Both the position numbers and the translations under genes were made by a program. From IMG/VR virus record IMGVR_UViG_3300030333_001029, positions 11,657-37,000 of that record: a DNA stretch of 25,344 nt. One strand, written 5' to 3'. Position 1 is the stretch's first letter; each line of letters starts with the position of its first letter. Under the pieces are notes generated by a model. That model made no database searches. It had not been told where the DNA came from and worked only from the letters and a program-made list of their open reading frames with translations. Shown here piece by piece: positions 11,519 to 25,344 of the stretch. The stretch is from a virus.

Positions 11519-12046
11519 TTATCCTATTGTACTCCCTGGTAAATCTGTCCTTCCTAATCCTGCTATGGGACTTGCTCCAGCAAAGGCTCCTTGTTGTCCA
11601 ATTATTGAAGGTTGTTGATCAGTTGTTTTTGGTTGTTTTCCAAGATAATAAGTATTAGCAATTCCTGATATTAAATTAACACCTCTATTATATGCTTCTT
11701 TATTTAATGCACCTGCAAGTCTAAAATCCATTTCATCTAAATCCATAGTTAATCCTTTTTCTACCCAGTATAATGTATCATTTAAATTATCTAGAACAGT
11801 TTGTGATTCTAATAAACTTGATCCTTCGCCCATTGCAATTCCTCTGGCAGCTTGTGCAGCTCTTTTTTCAGATAATATAATTGCTGCTCTTTCATTTGCC
11901 TGTATTCGTTGTTGTACTGCTTGTACTTCTCTTCTTCTTTTATCTGCCTTTGCAGCTCTACGAAGTTGCCTACTTTGATTATAAGAACCAAGTAAACTTA
12001 CTGCTGTTGATGCTCCAACTGCTATTGCTAACCAAGGTATTCCCAT
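11519..12046 (-). CDS. Internal virion protein (T7 gp14-like)
   Basis: 175 residues. A hydrophobic N-terminus (MGIPWLAIAVGASTAVSLLG) is followed by a strongly basic helix (QSRQLRRAAKADKRRREVQA), then Ala/Arg-rich helix with RAAQAARGIAMGEGSSLLES and a Gly/Pro/Gln-rich tail. This hydrophobic head plus long Ala/Arg/Glu helix is typical of gp14-type proteins, the outer-membrane channel part of the T7 ejection machinery, where (A/R)GI..GEGSS..ES is a recurring motif. It is one base away from the genes on both sides, between tail tubular protein B and the larger internal proteins, which is the T7 order. Confidence 0.8.
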   Translation of the reverse strand: MGIPWLAIAVGASTAVSLLGSYNQSRQLRRAAKADKRRREVQAVQQRIQANERAAIILSEKRAAQAARGIAMGEGSSLLESQTVLDNLNDTLYWVEKGLTMDLDEMDFRLAGALNKEAYNRGVNLISGIANTYYLGKQPKTTDQQPSIIGQQGAFAGASPIAGLGRTDLPGSTIG

Positions 12047-12047
12047 A

Positions 12048-14549
12048 TTAATCTGTTGTTACTAATGTTCCAGTAACTGCTAGAACTGTCATAGGTAGGG
12101 GTTGTGTTTGCTTTATAATTATCTGACCATCTCTATCCCAACCTAAGTTAGTAACTCTTTTATCTCCTGTAAACGCTGGTATTGGCTCACCCATTGCATT
12201 TGCCGAACTTCTGAATGGAAGTTGGTCGTTATTAATAGTTACGCCAACACTATCTAATAATCTTACAATAATTTCATTATACCTTTTTTTCCTGCCTTGT
12301 GCAGTACCTGCTTGTGCAGTACCCTCTGGTCTTAAGGTTTTTATAGTAGAAACATAACCAAGACCTACCTCTATTGTTTTACTTTCAAATGTACTTGGAA
12401 GACTAACTGTTACTGCTCCGTTAGTAACTTTTTGTGCTGGATATACTGCATCATCTATAAGTATTTGTACTGTTTCGCCTTCTAAATGATCTAAACTTGT
12501 TACTGTTGTAGATGATCCTGTAACTGTTCCTGCAAGTCCAGAATCTTGATTTAGTGTACTGTCTAAATATTCTACATATTGTACTGTTGATCCGTTAATT
12601 AATCTTTGCACAATAATATAAACTGTATCTTCTGATGCCTCTGATATTGTTGTAATACTTTTTACATCTGCATGAGTTTCGTTTTGTATTGCAAGTCTTA
12701 CAGGGCTACTACTATCTACTGTTAAAAATCCTGTGCTTTCTGGTGTAGTTTCACTAATAGTTACTTCAGCACTAGATACTGTAGCTGTAAAATCTGCATG
12801 ACCATTTATAGTTGTCTGTAAATTACTTGCTGTCGTATTGTTATTTGTTTCTGTTTTAAATTCATTTGTTCCTGCAGTCCCTGTTGTAGATGTAAATGTA
12901 ACAGTTGTGCCATCTGATTTTGTAAAAGTAAGTGTAGAACCTGATACTATATTTGCATAATCAGAAACTGTAACAGTACATGATTGTGATTTACCACCTA
13001 TAATATGTCTATGCCATGCAAGTATTTTTTCGTCTTTTAAATATGTAAGTCCAACTAGCTCACCATCATCTCTTACTGCATATAATATTCTGTCTGGTTC
13101 TTGTGCATATGCTAAATCAACAAGACCTGTGCCTGTTACATGATCTGCTAACAAGTTAAGATCTGGAGCTATGTAAGCATCATCTGCAAATCTAAACTCA
13201 AATGCTCTTACCTTTTGTCTTTGTCTTTGCACAAATAATACAGCATCATCAATTTGTACTGGCAATGTACTATGTGTTCCATATGTAGTTTGTTGTGTAA
13301 TATTTACATTGTCTGGTTTTAATGGCTCTCCAGTAGGTCTAGCGACTTTGAATTCACCACCTGCTGTTAAAATAATAAGATCTCTAGCTGGTGCTAATGC
13401 TCTAATAACATTTACCTTATTAGATGCAATAGTATATATAAATGCGTCAGATGCACTTGCATCATCTACATCAAAATTATCGAACAATCCAGACTGTGAT
13501 GCAAATATAGTTTGTGGAAATGATGTTGTTCCACCATAAATTAATCGTTGTTCAAAAAAAGTAACAGCTTTCGGAAACCCTGTTGTATCTGAAAATGTGC
13601 CTAGTTGAAAAGCTACTGTTGCATCTGTATTTGCAAATGCTTTTGTTATAGTGCAAACAACAACTGTTGTACTTGTTCTGCTAGTAATAACTGCTTCACC
13701 ACTATTGAATTTTATAAGTCTACCTACATCTGTAGTTTGAAAACCATCACCACCATTAATACCAGTTGTTGCAGATGCTGTTATATCAACACCTGTTCCT
13801 GTACTTGCTGATGCTGGTGTAAGAGTTGTAGTTGTAGTATTAGCATCTAGATATGGACCAGTTGCACCAAAATCTACATCTGCAAGTGTCCAAGATGTAT
13901 GTCCTGTTCTCGATAGTTTCTCTGGCTCATGTAAAGGATGTACTATATACATTACATCTGCTGATTGTGCAAATTGTAAATCAAATACTTGTGCTGATGT
14001 ATATGGTGTTGCAATTTCGTAAACCTTTGCTGCAGTACCACCTGATGTGTATGTAGTATAGTTAGTAGAATTTACACCTGACAATTCAAATGTATGTGTT
14101 GTTACATTTGCTATCGTGTATCTTCTGCCATTTACCTCTGTCATACCAACAACATCATTAATCCAAACATGGTCGCCATTGCTATAACCATGAGAAGTTG
14201 CTGTTACAACTGCTGGGTTTGCTTTTGTAATAGCAGATATAGATTTGTCAGCCTCTGTTATTTGTCCTTGATCTTTAAAAAATCTTATATACTGATTGCC
14301 AAACTCTAACACATATGCTTGTTCATCATTAAATTCGAAAGGTATAAGTCTTGTAGTATTCGCAGAGTTTTTGACTTCACATATGAATCTACTGCCACTT
14401 CTTCTAGTTGCACCACCTTGTGGAAACACAGTCATGTTCTCTAGTGTTTCTACACCATTGCTATACTTGTCAAGATTAGTCTGTCCAAATAGTTTAGGAC
14501 TAAGTTCACCTGCAGTAAAATTTGTTTGTATTGGATGTGTTCTAGCCAT
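12048..14549 (-). CDS. Tail tubular protein B / nozzle (T7 gp12-like)
   Basis: 833 residues. The start (MARTHPIQTNFTAGELSPKL, then FGQTNLDKYSNGVETLENMTVFPQGGATRR) is the characteristic opening of T7 gp12-family nozzle proteins, with the GELSP motif. ATPYTSAQVFDLQFAQSAD, the VMYIVHP phrase and FFEQRLIYGGT further fit the family. Compared with a plain gp12 plan, an extra Thr-rich beta domain of about 110 residues (roughly 515-628) is inserted between AWHRH and the SEDTVYIIVQR strand; it contains SGSTLTFTKSDGTTVTF, a module seen in other tail proteins. The protein closes the distal tail and would help form the channel for DNA. The start overlaps the tail tubular A stop (TAATG). Confidence 0.9.
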   Translation of the reverse strand: MARTHPIQTNFTAGELSPKLFGQTNLDKYSNGVETLENMTVFPQGGATRRSGSRFICEVKNSANTTRLIPFEFNDEQAYVLEFGNQYIRFFKDQGQITEADKSISAITKANPAVVTATSHGYSNGDHVWINDVVGMTEVNGRRYTIANVTTHTFELSGVNSTNYTTYTSGGTAAKVYEIATPYTSAQVFDLQFAQSADVMYIVHPLHEPEKLSRTGHTSWTLADVDFGATGPYLDANTTTTTLTPASASTGTGVDITASATTGINGGDGFQTTDVGRLIKFNSGEAVITSRTSTTVVVCTITKAFANTDATVAFQLGTFSDTTGFPKAVTFFEQRLIYGGTTSFPQTIFASQSGLFDNFDVDDASASDAFIYTIASNKVNVIRALAPARDLIILTAGGEFKVARPTGEPLKPDNVNITQQTTYGTHSTLPVQIDDAVLFVQRQRQKVRAFEFRFADDAYIAPDLNLLADHVTGTGLVDLAYAQEPDRILYAVRDDGELVGLTYLKDEKILAWHRHIIGGKSQSCTVTVSDYANIVSGSTLTFTKSDGTTVTFTSTTGTAGTNEFKTETNNNTTASNLQTTINGHADFTATVSSAEVTISETTPESTGFLTVDSSSPVRLAIQNETHADVKSITTISEASEDTVYIIVQRLINGSTVQYVEYLDSTLNQDSGLAGTVTGSSTTVTSLDHLEGETVQILIDDAVYPAQKVTNGAVTVSLPSTFESKTIEVGLGYVSTIKTLRPEGTAQAGTAQGRKKRYNEIIVRLLDSVGVTINNDQLPFRSSANAMGEPIPAFTGDKRVTNLGWDRDGQIIIKQTQPLPMTVLAVTGTLVTTD

Positions 14550-20099: not shown

Positions 20100-20347
20100 T
20101 ATCCACCTAATAAAGTTTTTTTAGTTGTTGCAGTTTCACCTAAACCTTCTGCGCTTGTCAATATCGTTGAACCACCATATTGTGATGCAAGTCTTTGTGC
20201 AGTTGGTTGGGCAACTTTTTCTGTCATTTGCTCTACTGGTGCTGGTGTCGGTTTTCTAGATTTTTTACCAATCTTCAAAGCACTTGATATTGCTTTACCT
20301 GCAACAGAGCCAATAATACTAGATACTATAGCTGCTGGTCCACCCAT
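20099..20347 (-). CDS. Small virion-region protein, paralogue of the 19441-19686 product
   Basis: 82 residues. A hydrophobic, Gly/Ala/Ile-rich start (MGGPAAIVSSIIGSVAGKAI) leads into a basic, Pro-rich middle (KIGKKSRKPTPAPVEQ), and the C-terminus has STILT (60-64), GLGETATT and KTLLGG (77-82). The same C-terminal signature occurs at equal spacing in the 81-residue protein on the other side of the GNAT gene. TAATG coupling at both ends. Role unknown; possibly a minor head or tail-collar protein because of its place next to the portal. Confidence 0.7.
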   Translation of the reverse strand: MGGPAAIVSSIIGSVAGKAISSALKIGKKSRKPTPAPVEQMTEKVAQPTAQRLASQYGGSTILTSAEGLGETATTKKTLLGG

Positions 20348-20502
20348 TATTTTTTACTCCTTTTCTTTGGTGCATTTTTATGCACTTCTGTGAATGACTT
20401 ACCTTTCAACAGTTCTTTTTTTATCTTTGCAAGTGTAGCTTTTGTATGATGTTTACTATGTCTTTTCAAAGTTTGTTCTTGTCGTTTAGTAAGTTTCTTC
20501 AT
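20347..20502 (-). CDS. Very basic 51-residue protein
   Basis: MKKLTKRQEQTLKRHSKHHT then KATLAKIKKELLKGKSF and a basic end, 51 residues. Nineteen of them are Lys or Arg and three more are His; three are Glu. It is likely one or two helices (KRQEQTLKRHSKHH, ATLAKIKKELLKG). Small proteins with the KKLTKRQ..TLKRHSKHHT start occur in marine phages in my memory of the family; the function is not known. The start overlaps the stop of the upstream 50-residue gene (ATGA) and the stop overlaps the next start (TAATG). DNA or RNA binding is the natural guess from the charge. Confidence 0.72.
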   Translation of the reverse strand: MKKLTKRQEQTLKRHSKHHTKATLAKIKKELLKGKSFTEVHKNAPKKRSKK

Positions 20503-20651
20503 TTTTTCTTTGCAGTTTTAGCTGCCCTTCTAAAATTAGCTGCAGTTGGTGCGCCTTTAGATCCAGGCTTTCTCATTTTTTCACCACTACCTGCTTTGAT
20601 CCTTTTACGTTTTTTATGTATGTTTGCATACAGTCCTGGTTTTTTCGCCAT
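20499..20651 (-). CDS. Very basic 50-residue protein
   Basis: MAKKPGLYANIHKKRKRIKA followed by GSGEKMRKPGSKGAPTAANF and RRAAKTAKKK, 50 residues, 18 of them basic and one acidic. The start MAKKPGLYANI is shared by a small conserved protein of many marine phages, so this is a true gene although it was too short for a standard ORF cut-off. It is likely unfolded alone, with K-G-P turns, and may bind nucleic acid or sit inside the head. It overlaps both neighbours: TAATG with the 49-residue gene, ATGA with the 51-residue gene. Confidence 0.75.
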   Translation of the reverse strand: MAKKPGLYANIHKKRKRIKAGSGEKMRKPGSKGAPTAANFRRAAKTAKKK

Positions 20652-20800
20652 TATTTTTTCTTCCTCTTCATGTTTTTTGCAATAGCATTAGCTACAGCTT
20701 TTGGCATCTTTGGGTTTTTTGCCATTAATTTTTTTGCACCATTTTTCTTTTTTGGTGGCCTACCTTTTTTACTTCCGTATGTTCCTTTACCCATTGGCAT
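20651..20800 (-). CDS. Very basic 49-residue protein with AT-hook-like motif
   Basis: MPMGKGTYGSKKGRPPKKKN, then GAKKLMAKNPKMPKAVANAI and a K/R end, 49 residues with 18 basic and no acidic residues. KKGRPPKKK resembles an AT-hook (GRP core flanked by basic residues), which binds the minor groove of AT-rich DNA; this genome is AT-rich. AGGAGG is placed well before the ATG at 20800. The gene opens a chain of three overlapping basic micro-genes (49, 50 and 51 residues). A role in condensing or marking phage DNA during packaging is inferred only from charge and place after the terminase gene. Confidence 0.75.
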   Translation of the reverse strand: MPMGKGTYGSKKGRPPKKKNGAKKLMAKNPKMPKAVANAIAKNMKRKKK

Positions 20801-20812
20801 AATATATTCCTC

Positions 20813-21097
20813 CTATGCTCTACTAGTTTTTTTCTTCTTGTGTCTGTTAGCAAAATTTCTTGCTGATTCAACACTAGCAAATCCCCATTTTTTTAGGGCT
20901 AATGCTTTTCTGGTTGGTCGGCCCTTACTATCTTTCATAGGGCCTTTCATACCAGCAAATCTTGCAGCGAAACTAACACGTCTAGGGTTAGTGCCTTTAC
21001 TGACAGGAGGTTTTAAATTAGATCCTTCTTTTTTTTTAAAGTATCTTCTACCTGCTGCAGTAAGTCCACCAGTTTTACTTTTGTGTTCTTTTCTCAT
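20813..21097 (-). CDS. DUF6321-like basic protein
   Basis: 94 residues. HKSKTGGLTAAGRRYFKKKE followed by GSNLKPPVSKG, then RRVSFAARFAGMKGPMKDSK and ALALKKWGFASVESARNF. The order GGLTAAGR.(Y/K)(F).....GSNLK.PV, (R)(R/K)SF.AR..GM(K), then K.AL..W.(F) matches the DUF6321 family of small basic phage and viral proteins. The end is HKKKKTSRA. Strongly basic with few acidic residues, so a nucleic-acid contact is likely, though the family has no proven role. It overlaps the terminase large subunit stop by four bases (ATGA) and is followed by an AGGAGG site for the micro-gene next to it. Confidence 0.78.
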   Translation of the reverse strand: MRKEHKSKTGGLTAAGRRYFKKKEGSNLKPPVSKGTNPRRVSFAARFAGMKGPMKDSKGRPTRKALALKKWGFASVESARNFANRHKKKKTSRA

Positions 21098-23620: not shown

Positions 23621-23875
23621 ATGAAAGATAAAATAATTTATTGGTTAAATGATGATAATGATATAATGATTCCTTATCGTTATTTATCAAAGGCTAGACA
23701 AGGATTAAAAGCATTTAAAAGAATGGGTTTTAATCTATATCCTGAAATATGGGAATATGTCGGCCACTATGAAAATCACGGTTTTACCAAAAAAGAATTA
23801 AAAGAGTTAAATATGTCTGGATACATTCCAGCATATTTTATGCCGTGTGTAGAGAGAAAGGAGGTCTTAAAATGA
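23621..23875 (+). CDS. Unknown small protein, first gene of the rightward arm
   Basis: 84 residues starting MKDKIIYWLNDDNDIMIPYR. It is aromatic-rich (IYWLN, IWEYVGHYEN) and mixed in charge, with a Lys-rich middle (SKARQGLKAFKRMG) and the phrase TKKELKELNMSGYIPAYFMP near the end; it is probably a small helical domain. GGAGGTCTTAAA precedes the ATG, and the same 16 bases (GGAGGTCTTAAAATGA) recur at the next gene start. The end overlaps that gene (ATGA). No family recognised. Position as first gene after the control region suggests an early host-directed function. Confidence 0.68.
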   Translation: MKDKIIYWLNDDNDIMIPYRYLSKARQGLKAFKRMGFNLYPEIWEYVGHYENHGFTKKELKELNMSGYIPAYFMPCVERKEVLK

Positions 23876-24189
23876 GTTTATTTATAGAATATGAAGAAAT
23901 TCGTCCATCAATACCATATAATCTAACTTTACCTGATGACTATGATTTAATGGATATTTTAGATACTGAAGACTTGCCGCAGGGTTGGAATTCAGAAAGT
24001 TTTACAATTAAGGATTTATTACAACAATCCGATGATTATAAAACAAAAACAATTAATACAATATCAATATTTCTAGGTTCTTCTGAATTTGAAGATTATA
24101 CAGAAATGGCCGATTGTAATATAGAGCAACAAGAATATGAAATGATTGATTATGATTATGAAATTGATGAAGATGGAGGATCAGAATAA
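23872..24189 (+). CDS. Very acidic small protein
   Basis: 105 residues from the ATG at 23872; the frame opens earlier with GTG at 23845, but the strong AGGAGG site lies just before 23872, so the shorter form is right. About 29 Asp/Glu against four Lys/Arg give a net charge near -25. Acidic stretches such as DDYDLMDILDTEDL and DYDYEIDEDGGSE resemble DNA-mimic proteins (Ocr-like or similar anti-restriction proteins), but no known family can be claimed. It overlaps the first gene by four bases and the next by one (TAATG). Confidence 0.7.
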   Translation: MSLFIEYEEIRPSIPYNLTLPDDYDLMDILDTEDLPQGWNSESFTIKDLLQQSDDYKTKTINTISIFLGSSEFEDYTEMADCNIEQQEYEMIDYDYEIDEDGGSE

Positions 24190-24440
24190 TGAATATAGAA
24201 TATAGAATAATTGTTAATGATTCAGCTTTTAAAATAGATGAATCTTACGAAATTGAAAAAGATGCTGATGAATCTTATGAAGATTATGAAAAAAGAGCAT
24301 TCAAAGAATTTGAACAATATAAAAATTTTCCCCGTGATGAGTGGGAATCGTTTGAATTAAGAAAATATGACTTAGATGAAGATGATTATCTTGATTGGGA
24401 TATGACAGAATCAAAATATTATAATGGAGGTCAAAAATAA
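24189..24440 (+). CDS. Acidic small protein
   Basis: 83 residues, about 26 acidic and 12 basic. MNIEYRIIVNDSAFKIDESY, then a helical part SYEDYEKRAFKEFEQYKNF and an acidic end DLDEDDYLDWDMTESKYYN. It is preceded by GGAGGATC, the complement of the GATCCTCC boxes at 23326-23361, and starts with TAATG coupling. A beta-hairpin plus helix domain seems likely. Family not recognised. The net charge near -14 again fits the acidic early-protein class of this arm. Confidence 0.68.
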   Translation: MNIEYRIIVNDSAFKIDESYEIEKDADESYEDYEKRAFKEFEQYKNFPRDEWESFELRKYDLDEDDYLDWDMTESKYYNGGQK

Positions 24441-24622
24441 TGACAAAGGAAGAAATAAAAATGATAAAAAGAAAATTTGAATATGGCGATTTAACATATG
24501 ATGATGGCGATGGTGTTGAATATGAAATATGGTTAGATGAAGACACAGGAAAAAAGTATAATGTACCTATTCAAATAAATAGATATTTTGAAGAAATGGA
24601 GGAGGTCAAAGAAAATGACTAA
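24440..24622 (+). CDS. Acidic small protein
   Basis: 60 residues: MTKEEIKMIKRKFEYGDLTY, then DDGDGVEYEIWLDEDTGKKY and NVPIQINRYFEEMEEVKEND. A short basic helix is followed by two or three beta strands and an acidic helix. About 18 acidic against 9 basic residues. GGAGG lies before the start, which overlaps the preceding stop (TAATG); the end overlaps the next gene by eight bases. No family recognised. Confidence 0.65.
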   Translation: MTKEEIKMIKRKFEYGDLTYDDGDGVEYEIWLDEDTGKKYNVPIQINRYFEEMEEVKEND

Positions 24623-24776
24623 CTATAAAAACTTAAAACAATATATTAATGATGTTTTTAATTTTGACCTTTTTGATTTACCAGTTTATCAAATAGGAAT
24701 TATAAAACATTATTATAAACTTGGTAAAACTAAAGTTATAAAAGATTATATAAGTGAGGTTGTTAAAAATGTCTAA
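24615..24776 (+). CDS. Small helical protein
   Basis: 53 residues from the ATG at 24615: MTNYKNLKQYINDVFNFDLF, DLPVYQIGIIKHYYKLGKTK and a short Lys/Val end. The frame is open further upstream (24588), but GGAGGAGGTC at 24599-24608 points to 24615. Rich in aromatic and Lys residues, likely two or three helices. It overlaps both neighbours by eight bases, a tight coupling. No family recognised. Confidence 0.62.
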   Translation: MTNYKNLKQYINDVFNFDLFDLPVYQIGIIKHYYKLGKTKVIKDYISEVVKNV

Positions 24777-24984
24777 GTACAAATTTACTCTAGAATTTGA
24801 TCTTGAAATAGATTTAAAAGATACAATTTTTGCAGATGATGAAGAATTAAATGAAAACACATTGCAAAATTATTGGTATTTTTGGTTCGGTGAAAATGCA
24901 AATCAAGACTTAAAAGATTTTTTAAAAGAATATCAAGCCACTTTAATAAACTACACAATAAAAAATATTGTAGAAAAAATTTAA
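24769..24984 (+). CDS. Acidic small protein
   Basis: 71 residues from the ATG at 24769 (an upstream in-frame GTG at 24754 is possible, but the GAGGTT before 24769 fits better). MSKYKFTLEFDLEIDLKDTI has alternating hydrophobic and acidic residues, a beta-hairpin pattern, then LNENTLQNYWYFWFGENANQ and an amphipathic helix at the end. Overlaps the previous gene by eight bases. Followed by a 53-base gap with a promoter. No family recognised. Confidence 0.63.
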   Translation: MSKYKFTLEFDLEIDLKDTIFADDEELNENTLQNYWYFWFGENANQDLKDFLKEYQATLINYTIKNIVEKI

Positions 24985-25037: not shown

Positions 25038-25298
25038 ATGAAAGAAACAATTTATAGTATAGTGAGGCATGTTTCACAGTCTGGAATGACTAGGCACATA
25101 TCTTTTCATTATATTGAAGATGGGAAAATGTATTCTATGAATCACCTTATAGCAGAAGCAACAGGTTATAAATTTAATAAAAATTATGATGCTTTAGTTG
25201 TCAAAGGTTGTGGGATGGATATGGCCTTTCATGTTGTCGAGCATTACAGTCGAGCAACAGGCAGGGAAGGAAATTATTATAGAAGTCAAATTTTATAA
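25038..25298 (+). CDS. Conserved small phage protein (VKGCGMDM type)
   Basis: 86 residues: MKETIYSIVRHVSQSGMTRH, then a DGKMYSMNHLIAEATGYKFN segment and LVVKGCGMDMAFHVVEHYSR. The paired signatures RHVSxSGMTRHI and V.GCGMDMxFH occur in a widespread family of small phage proteins of unknown function (from recollection of the family). The Cys, His and Asp residues of GCGMDMAFHVVEH could bind metal. AAGGAGG is well placed before the ATG; a promoter candidate lies upstream. 19 bases separate it from the next gene. Confidence 0.78.
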   Translation: MKETIYSIVRHVSQSGMTRHISFHYIEDGKMYSMNHLIAEATGYKFNKNYDALVVKGCGMDMAFHVVEHYSRATGREGNYYRSQIL

Positions 25299-25317: not shown

Positions 25318-25344
25318 ATGGAATCATGGAGCATAAAAGATCTT
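25318..25344 (+). CDS. Start of a further rightward gene, cut by window end
   Basis: Nine codons (MESWSIKDL) after AAGGAGGTTAGACA, a strong ribosome site. The rest lies outside the window, so no function can be given. Confidence 0.55.

Follow-up and report, generated by a model that had tools for sequence, protein, structure and literature searches.

The window, by which we mean the whole analysed stretch of 25,344 nucleotides, extends from base 11657 to the end (base 37000) of a virus record of 37,000 bases, whose nearest named relative is Pelagibacter phage Baldr. The window had a single near DNA match in 50,697 phage records, the portal (head-tail connector) gene of Pelagibacter phage EXVC032P Baldr (79% identical), and its terminase protein shares 79% identity with that of Baldr; from this relationship, SAR11 bacteria are probably the host group. 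The structural genes run leftward from those coding for the small (23097) and large (22506) terminase subunits, and a rightward block of small genes begins at 23621, which is presumably early to judge from gene order and orientation. In this region the GC content goes down to 0.24 and both skews become positive. The promoter search returned 20 sigma-70-like sites with 19.7 expected, and none of them can be claimed. Genes for a helicase, an exonuclease and a DNA methyltransferase are found further along the same record, the last of them (phrog_363) at 4621-5517 of L003, a locus of this record outside the window, on the minus strand and opposite to the surrounding early-side genes. In addition, one gene seems to be split between positions 25319-25344 of the window and the start of L003, with intact copies (judged by eye) in two other collected loci, L087 and L006. 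With a gene divided in this way over both ends, the record probably comprises an entire genome, cut circularly, in which case the small genes of the block would continue into L003. Further along the block, g7 (25038-25298) corresponds to phrog_12365, and a possible diverged second copy lies at 1601-1930 of L003 (34% identity over 56 residues). Beside the terminase, at 20347-21097 on the minus strand, there is a run of small, very basic proteins (e.g. +18 in 49 aa and +17 in 50 aa); similar ones occur in L085, and two match PHROGs families of unknown function.

The first six genes of the block are all on the plus strand and tightly packed. The first gene, g1 (23621-23875; 84 aa, net charge +3), overlaps by 4 bases with g2 (23872-24189), which codes for a protein of 105 aa with 29 Asp/Glu and 4 Lys/Arg residues (net -25). 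A stop-start overlap joins g2 to g3 (24189-24440; 83 aa, net -14), followed by g4 (24440-24622; 60 aa, net -9), a member of a family with a GDGVEYE core, then g5 (24615-24776; 53 aa, net +3), which is not acidic and lies between g4 and g6, and finally g6 (24769-24984; 71 aa, net -8), so that acidic and non-acidic small genes alternate along the block. A purine-rich ribosome-binding site precedes each of the six genes; in the case of g2, g3, g4 and g5, a GGAGG is located within the 3' end of the gene before. That of g3 (24175-24179, plus strand) lies within the end of g2 and encodes the Gly-Gly of its DGG tail, and that of g4 (24426-24430, plus strand) lies within the end of g3. The terminal Gly-Gly or Glu residues of g2, g3 and g4 are therefore partly fixed by ribosome binding, which is unrelated to the proteins themselves.

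L085 and L086, contigs that hardly differ from each other in this region, both carry orthologues of g2 to g6 with the gene order unchanged, and L087 holds orthologues of g3, g4 and g5. Identity to L085 is 45% for g2, 74% for g3, 88% for g4, 87% for g5 and 81% for g6 (80-81% over L085/L086). The g3 orthologue has a net charge of -16 in L085/L086 and of -21 in L087, where it is 106 aa long and 55% identical, and g5 has relatives in L085, L086, L087, L006, L008 and L009. The dN/dS values against L085 (g2, 0.63; g3, 0.21; g4, 0.14; g5, 0.31; g6, 0.18) are below 1 in all five genes compared, which therefore appear to be under constraint, g2 least. The strong ribosome-binding sites, the tight overlaps and the conserved order of the orthologues in related contigs indicate that the four acidic genes g2, g3, g4 and g6 are real. 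g1 is absent from L085/L086, where a g5-like gene of 61 aa (4496-4681 of L085) stands in its place; the first gene of the block is thus swapped between close relatives.

An earlier note on this DNA had described a cluster of strongly acidic proteins; the four gene starts that it gave (23872, 24189, 24440 and 24769) are correct and its figure of about 29 acidic against 4 basic residues for g2 was reproduced exactly in our recount. The description itself applies to part of the cluster: g2 is exceptional and g3 moderate, but g4 and g6 are only mildly acidic and the positively charged g5 lies amid them. Among mechanical ORFs passing a ribosome-binding-site filter, a background that misses some real genes (e.g. 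12048-14549), proteins as acidic per residue as g2, g3, g4 and g6 or more so number 2, 25, 36 and 72, respectively, in a set of 784 unique small ORFs (up to 130 aa, from the collected loci, orthologues included), and 1, 11, 15 and 31 of 153 early-side small genes from the 26 terminase-bearing relatives, out of 80, that had upstream sequence. The 784-ORF analysis kept an overlapping ORF over positions 755-907 of L003, which left a very acidic 50-aa gene outside the 34 small genes of the phage itself. For annotated proteins of 40 to about 130 aa, the same four levels are reached by 1 (Ocr), 1, 2 and 2 of 27 proteins in T7 and by 0, 2, 4 and 12 of 91 in two stretches of T4; in T7 only Ocr and gp5.9, an annotated inhibitor of RecBCD, are found at the acidity of g4 or beyond. 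When residues were drawn from the plus-strand genes of the phage, a crude independent-residue model uncorrected for the number of genes gave chance probabilities of about 2e-5 for g2, 0.01 for g3, 0.04 for g4 and 0.10 for g6. The acidity is far beyond chance in g2, moderately so in g3 and hardly so in g4 and g6, and mild acidity says little, given that 12 T4 proteins are at least as acidic as g6. Furthermore, T4 Arn, which is named a DNA mimic in PMC7261183, has a net charge of only -9 in 92 aa, which shows that mimicry does not require a strong charge. Acidity alone selects mixed things, and in the g4 family the charge is not conserved.

In g2, where Asp and Glu make up 27.6% of the residues, the charge is gathered at both ends (-9, -1 and -15 by thirds), leaving a nearly neutral middle, and the last 46 residues include no Lys, Arg or His. 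The L085/L086 orthologue, 45% identical, has a net charge of -23; the two proteins have 23 acidic positions in common, and at 11 others an acidic residue faces a neutral one and at 1 a basic one. In L085 the orthologue comes second in the block, as g2 does in the window. Conservation of g2 rests on these two sequences, as it is known from one other phage lineage only: a single-sequence scan of viral contigs gave no relative, and a two-sequence profile scan returned only the contigs behind L085/L086, previously found through g3. No tblastn match was obtained for g2, g3 or g6 among the 50,697 phage records, and a profile search with g3 over 44 chosen locus records found three, all of them the known ones. 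The AlphaFold model of g2, with two sequences as input, had a mean pLDDT of 47.4 and was unusable.

The four acidic proteins had no significant match in Pfam, PHROGs, NCBIfam or PDB sequences, which bears out the earlier suggestion that they may be undescribed, and keyword searches of the literature, mostly at listing level, found none of them described. Among the anti-CRISPR and anti-restriction families of NCBIfam nothing came near the curated cut-off. The Ocr families PF08684 and phrog_2568 gave no match to g2, g3, g4 or g6 at E up to 1, with T7 Ocr as a control scoring 215 bits (Pfam PF08684) and 194 bits (PHROGs), and g2 showed no similarity to Ocr by BLASTP or hhalign. PF25708, the family of T7 gp5.9, matched none of the four.

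A profile scan with g4 found 15 viral stretches. Twelve members, including that of the window and leaving out duplicates or near-duplicates (L086, L112, L113, L116 and L118), were aligned and share G-D-x-V-E-Y-E, with an I and an R further on. Their net charges go from -14 to -1, with L109, L110 and L117 at -1 to -2, and the family is held together by its GDGVEYE core and not by charge. Four cysteines are present in 4 of the 12 (L108, L111, L114 and L115), as two close pairs, one on each side of the core, a spacing suggestive of a zinc ribbon; g4 of the window lineage has no cysteine. The model of g4 consists of a helix and three strands (best model pLDDT 91.5, the other four 56-73). It matched no PDB entry at E of 0.001 or less, and with VIA-align the best Z was 3.0 (rmsd 8.9 over 52 residues), no zinc ribbon being among the rows; one uncharacterised viral model was matched (E 9.3e-4). 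By tblastn among the 50,697 phage records, g4 gave only three weak rows (E 0.09), and no member of the family was found in two genome-contig scans, weak searches with a single peptide pattern. Ten neighbours of g4-family genes from five loci were checked, of which 5 had a match at E up to 0.01, one of them below its cut-off. Two of the neighbours in L110 carry, respectively, an ArdC N-terminal domain and a YqaJ recombinase domain, and in L107 an ERF recombinase gene is near the g4-family gene; this setting amid recombination and conflict genes is weak evidence of a role.

Other acidic early families were observed outside the window. The 50-aa protein encoded at 755-907 of L003, on the same record, has a net charge of -15 (-0.30 per residue), is more acidic per residue than g2 and is shared by more phages, which makes it a better candidate than g2. 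By tblastn over the collected loci it was found in L085, L012, L088, L008, L087, L021 and, in part, L015, with homologues placed at 6536 of L085, 2323 of L087, 1809-1633 of L008 (minus strand) and 769-614 of L012 (minus strand). Members of this family have 50-59 aa and net charges of -12 to -18; at E up to 0.01 neither PHROGs nor Pfam gave a match for the L003 protein, and the L008 homologue has none among named phages. A second family, of about 96 aa and net -17 to -19, is encoded at 1445-1735 of L087, 2586-2299 of L008, 491-201 of L006 and 2513-2220 of L012, and its members in L087 and L008 match phrog_9974, a family without assigned function.

All these data suggest that a rightward and presumably early block of small host-takeover genes very likely starts with this region. 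Within this block g2 could be a charge-based decoy, a possible but doubtful role suggested by its charge, its position and the conservation of its charge. It would bind a host DNA- or RNA-binding protein (a nuclease, RNA polymerase, a nucleoid protein or a restriction enzyme), with its C-terminal third, free of lysine and arginine, as the likely contact surface, and g3 may act likewise. g4 would have arisen from a zinc-ribbon-like fold by loss of the cysteines and serve as a small adapter protein, with a charge that is incidental, and g5 and g6 would be unrelated small proteins. Taken as a whole, this account is tentative and falls somewhat short of probable. The charge per residue at the level of Ocr, kept in an orthologue of 45% identity, would support the decoy role of g2, and its near-neutral middle third, the lack of similarity to Ocr and the existence of only two sequences argue against it.

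It is also conceivable, though not probable, that the acidity is incidental, the proteins being ordinary small phage products whose charge has no role, from a genome that is rich in AT and purine-rich on its coding strand. The low GC and the positive skews of the region are consistent with this, as are the near-neutral g4 relatives in L109, L110 and L117 and the position of g4, g6 and partly g3 in the usual range of the relatives' early genes (15, 31 and 11 of 153); it covers g2 poorly, however, whose acidity is reached by 1 of those 153 genes and by none of the 91 T4 proteins and is kept in the orthologue. That g2 has an acidic disordered tail through which it partners another phage protein (g1 or g5, for example, at +3 each) in the manner of a chaperone or an antitoxin seems improbable to us. 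The concentration of charge in the last third with its 46 residues free of Lys, Arg and His, the alternation of acidic and non-acidic genes and the low model confidence, which fits disorder, would agree with such a partnership, but L085 has g2 and lacks g1, and a low pLDDT obtained from two sequences does not demonstrate disorder.

A true anti-restriction or anti-CRISPR function of g2 and g3 is very unlikely. In its favour are the charge of g2 at the Ocr level, the DNA methyltransferase gene carried by the same phage, and a gene within a few hundred bases of the g4-family genes of L110 and L112, which in L110 bears an ArdC N-terminal domain. Against it, neither Ocr nor any of the anti-CRISPR and anti-restriction families was matched, and few known defences are reported for SAR11, a host group that is itself inferred. 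In one survey, 19 of 172 Ca. P. ubique genomes have putative anti-phage systems, all of them restriction-modification, and none of the bloom MAGs has any (PMC11066056); similarly, another study reports no CRISPR or restriction genes in the surveyed Pelagibacterales genomes (PMC9516812). This scarcity of known defences lowers both the anti-CRISPR and the anti-restriction versions and, if the host is SAR11, would make another host DNA-binding protein an at least equally plausible target for a decoy.

The proposal that these proteins are DNA mimics therefore stands as a reasonable lead for g2 alone, for which it is a live reading given a charge at the Ocr level that is kept in the orthologue; mimicry is possible for g3 and unlikely for g4, some of whose relatives are near-neutral or zinc-ribbon-like, and g6 is not unusual. 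A DNA-mimic label for the whole cluster was rejected, with g5 at +3, g6 ordinary and the charge of the g4 family not kept: the cluster is not one functional class, and the gene in its middle is not acidic. More broadly, g2, perhaps together with g3 and the 50-aa family, might represent new, sequence-unrelated families of DNA-imitating decoys in marine phages, whose target would be a DNA-handling protein in hosts poor in defences, as opposed to a classical defence system, although we regard this as unlikely. If g2 is a decoy, Ocr-like host takeover would extend to phages of abundant ocean bacteria with few known defences, and would give a hint of the host DNA-binding protein whose silencing these phages require; otherwise, the block adds one more set of small unknown early genes.

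Ocr-like DNA mimics carry surface charges arranged like DNA phosphates on a dimer shaped like bent DNA, and inhibit type I restriction and BREX. T7 Ocr (gene 0.3, PF08684) resembles g2 in length (117 and 105 aa) and in charge per residue (-28/117, or -0.239, and -25/105, or -0.238), a level that g4 and g6 do not attain, and it is found at the start of the early block, as g2 is near the start of its presumed early block. It differs from g2 in sequence, with no similarity and no PF08684 match, and in the distribution of charge by thirds (-6, -8 and -14 against -9, -1 and -15, with the charge of g2 at the two ends). According to PMC7261183, Ocr binds several nucleic-acid-binding proteins and other DNA mimics failed to block BREX, so mimicry alone predicts no target. 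T7 gp5.9 (PF25708; 52 aa, net -8) is close to g4 in charge density, but none of the four proteins matches its family, and Lar-type and other phage zinc-ribbon proteins (PF14354, phrog_6504) are weakly matched only by four-cysteine relatives of g4 (L115 to PF14354, E 0.047, below the curated cut-off; L111 to phrog_6504, E 0.0046), g4 itself having neither cysteines nor a match. Lastly, Gp44 of SPO1, a phage host-takeover protein, has an acidic stretch free of lysine and arginine and is proposed to bind RNA polymerase by imitating single-stranded DNA; it shows that a disordered segment of this kind can have RNA polymerase as its target (PMC8208478). Gp44 shares such a stretch with g2 and differs from it in its size (27 kDa), its folded N-terminal domain and a segment with 57% Asp/Glu.
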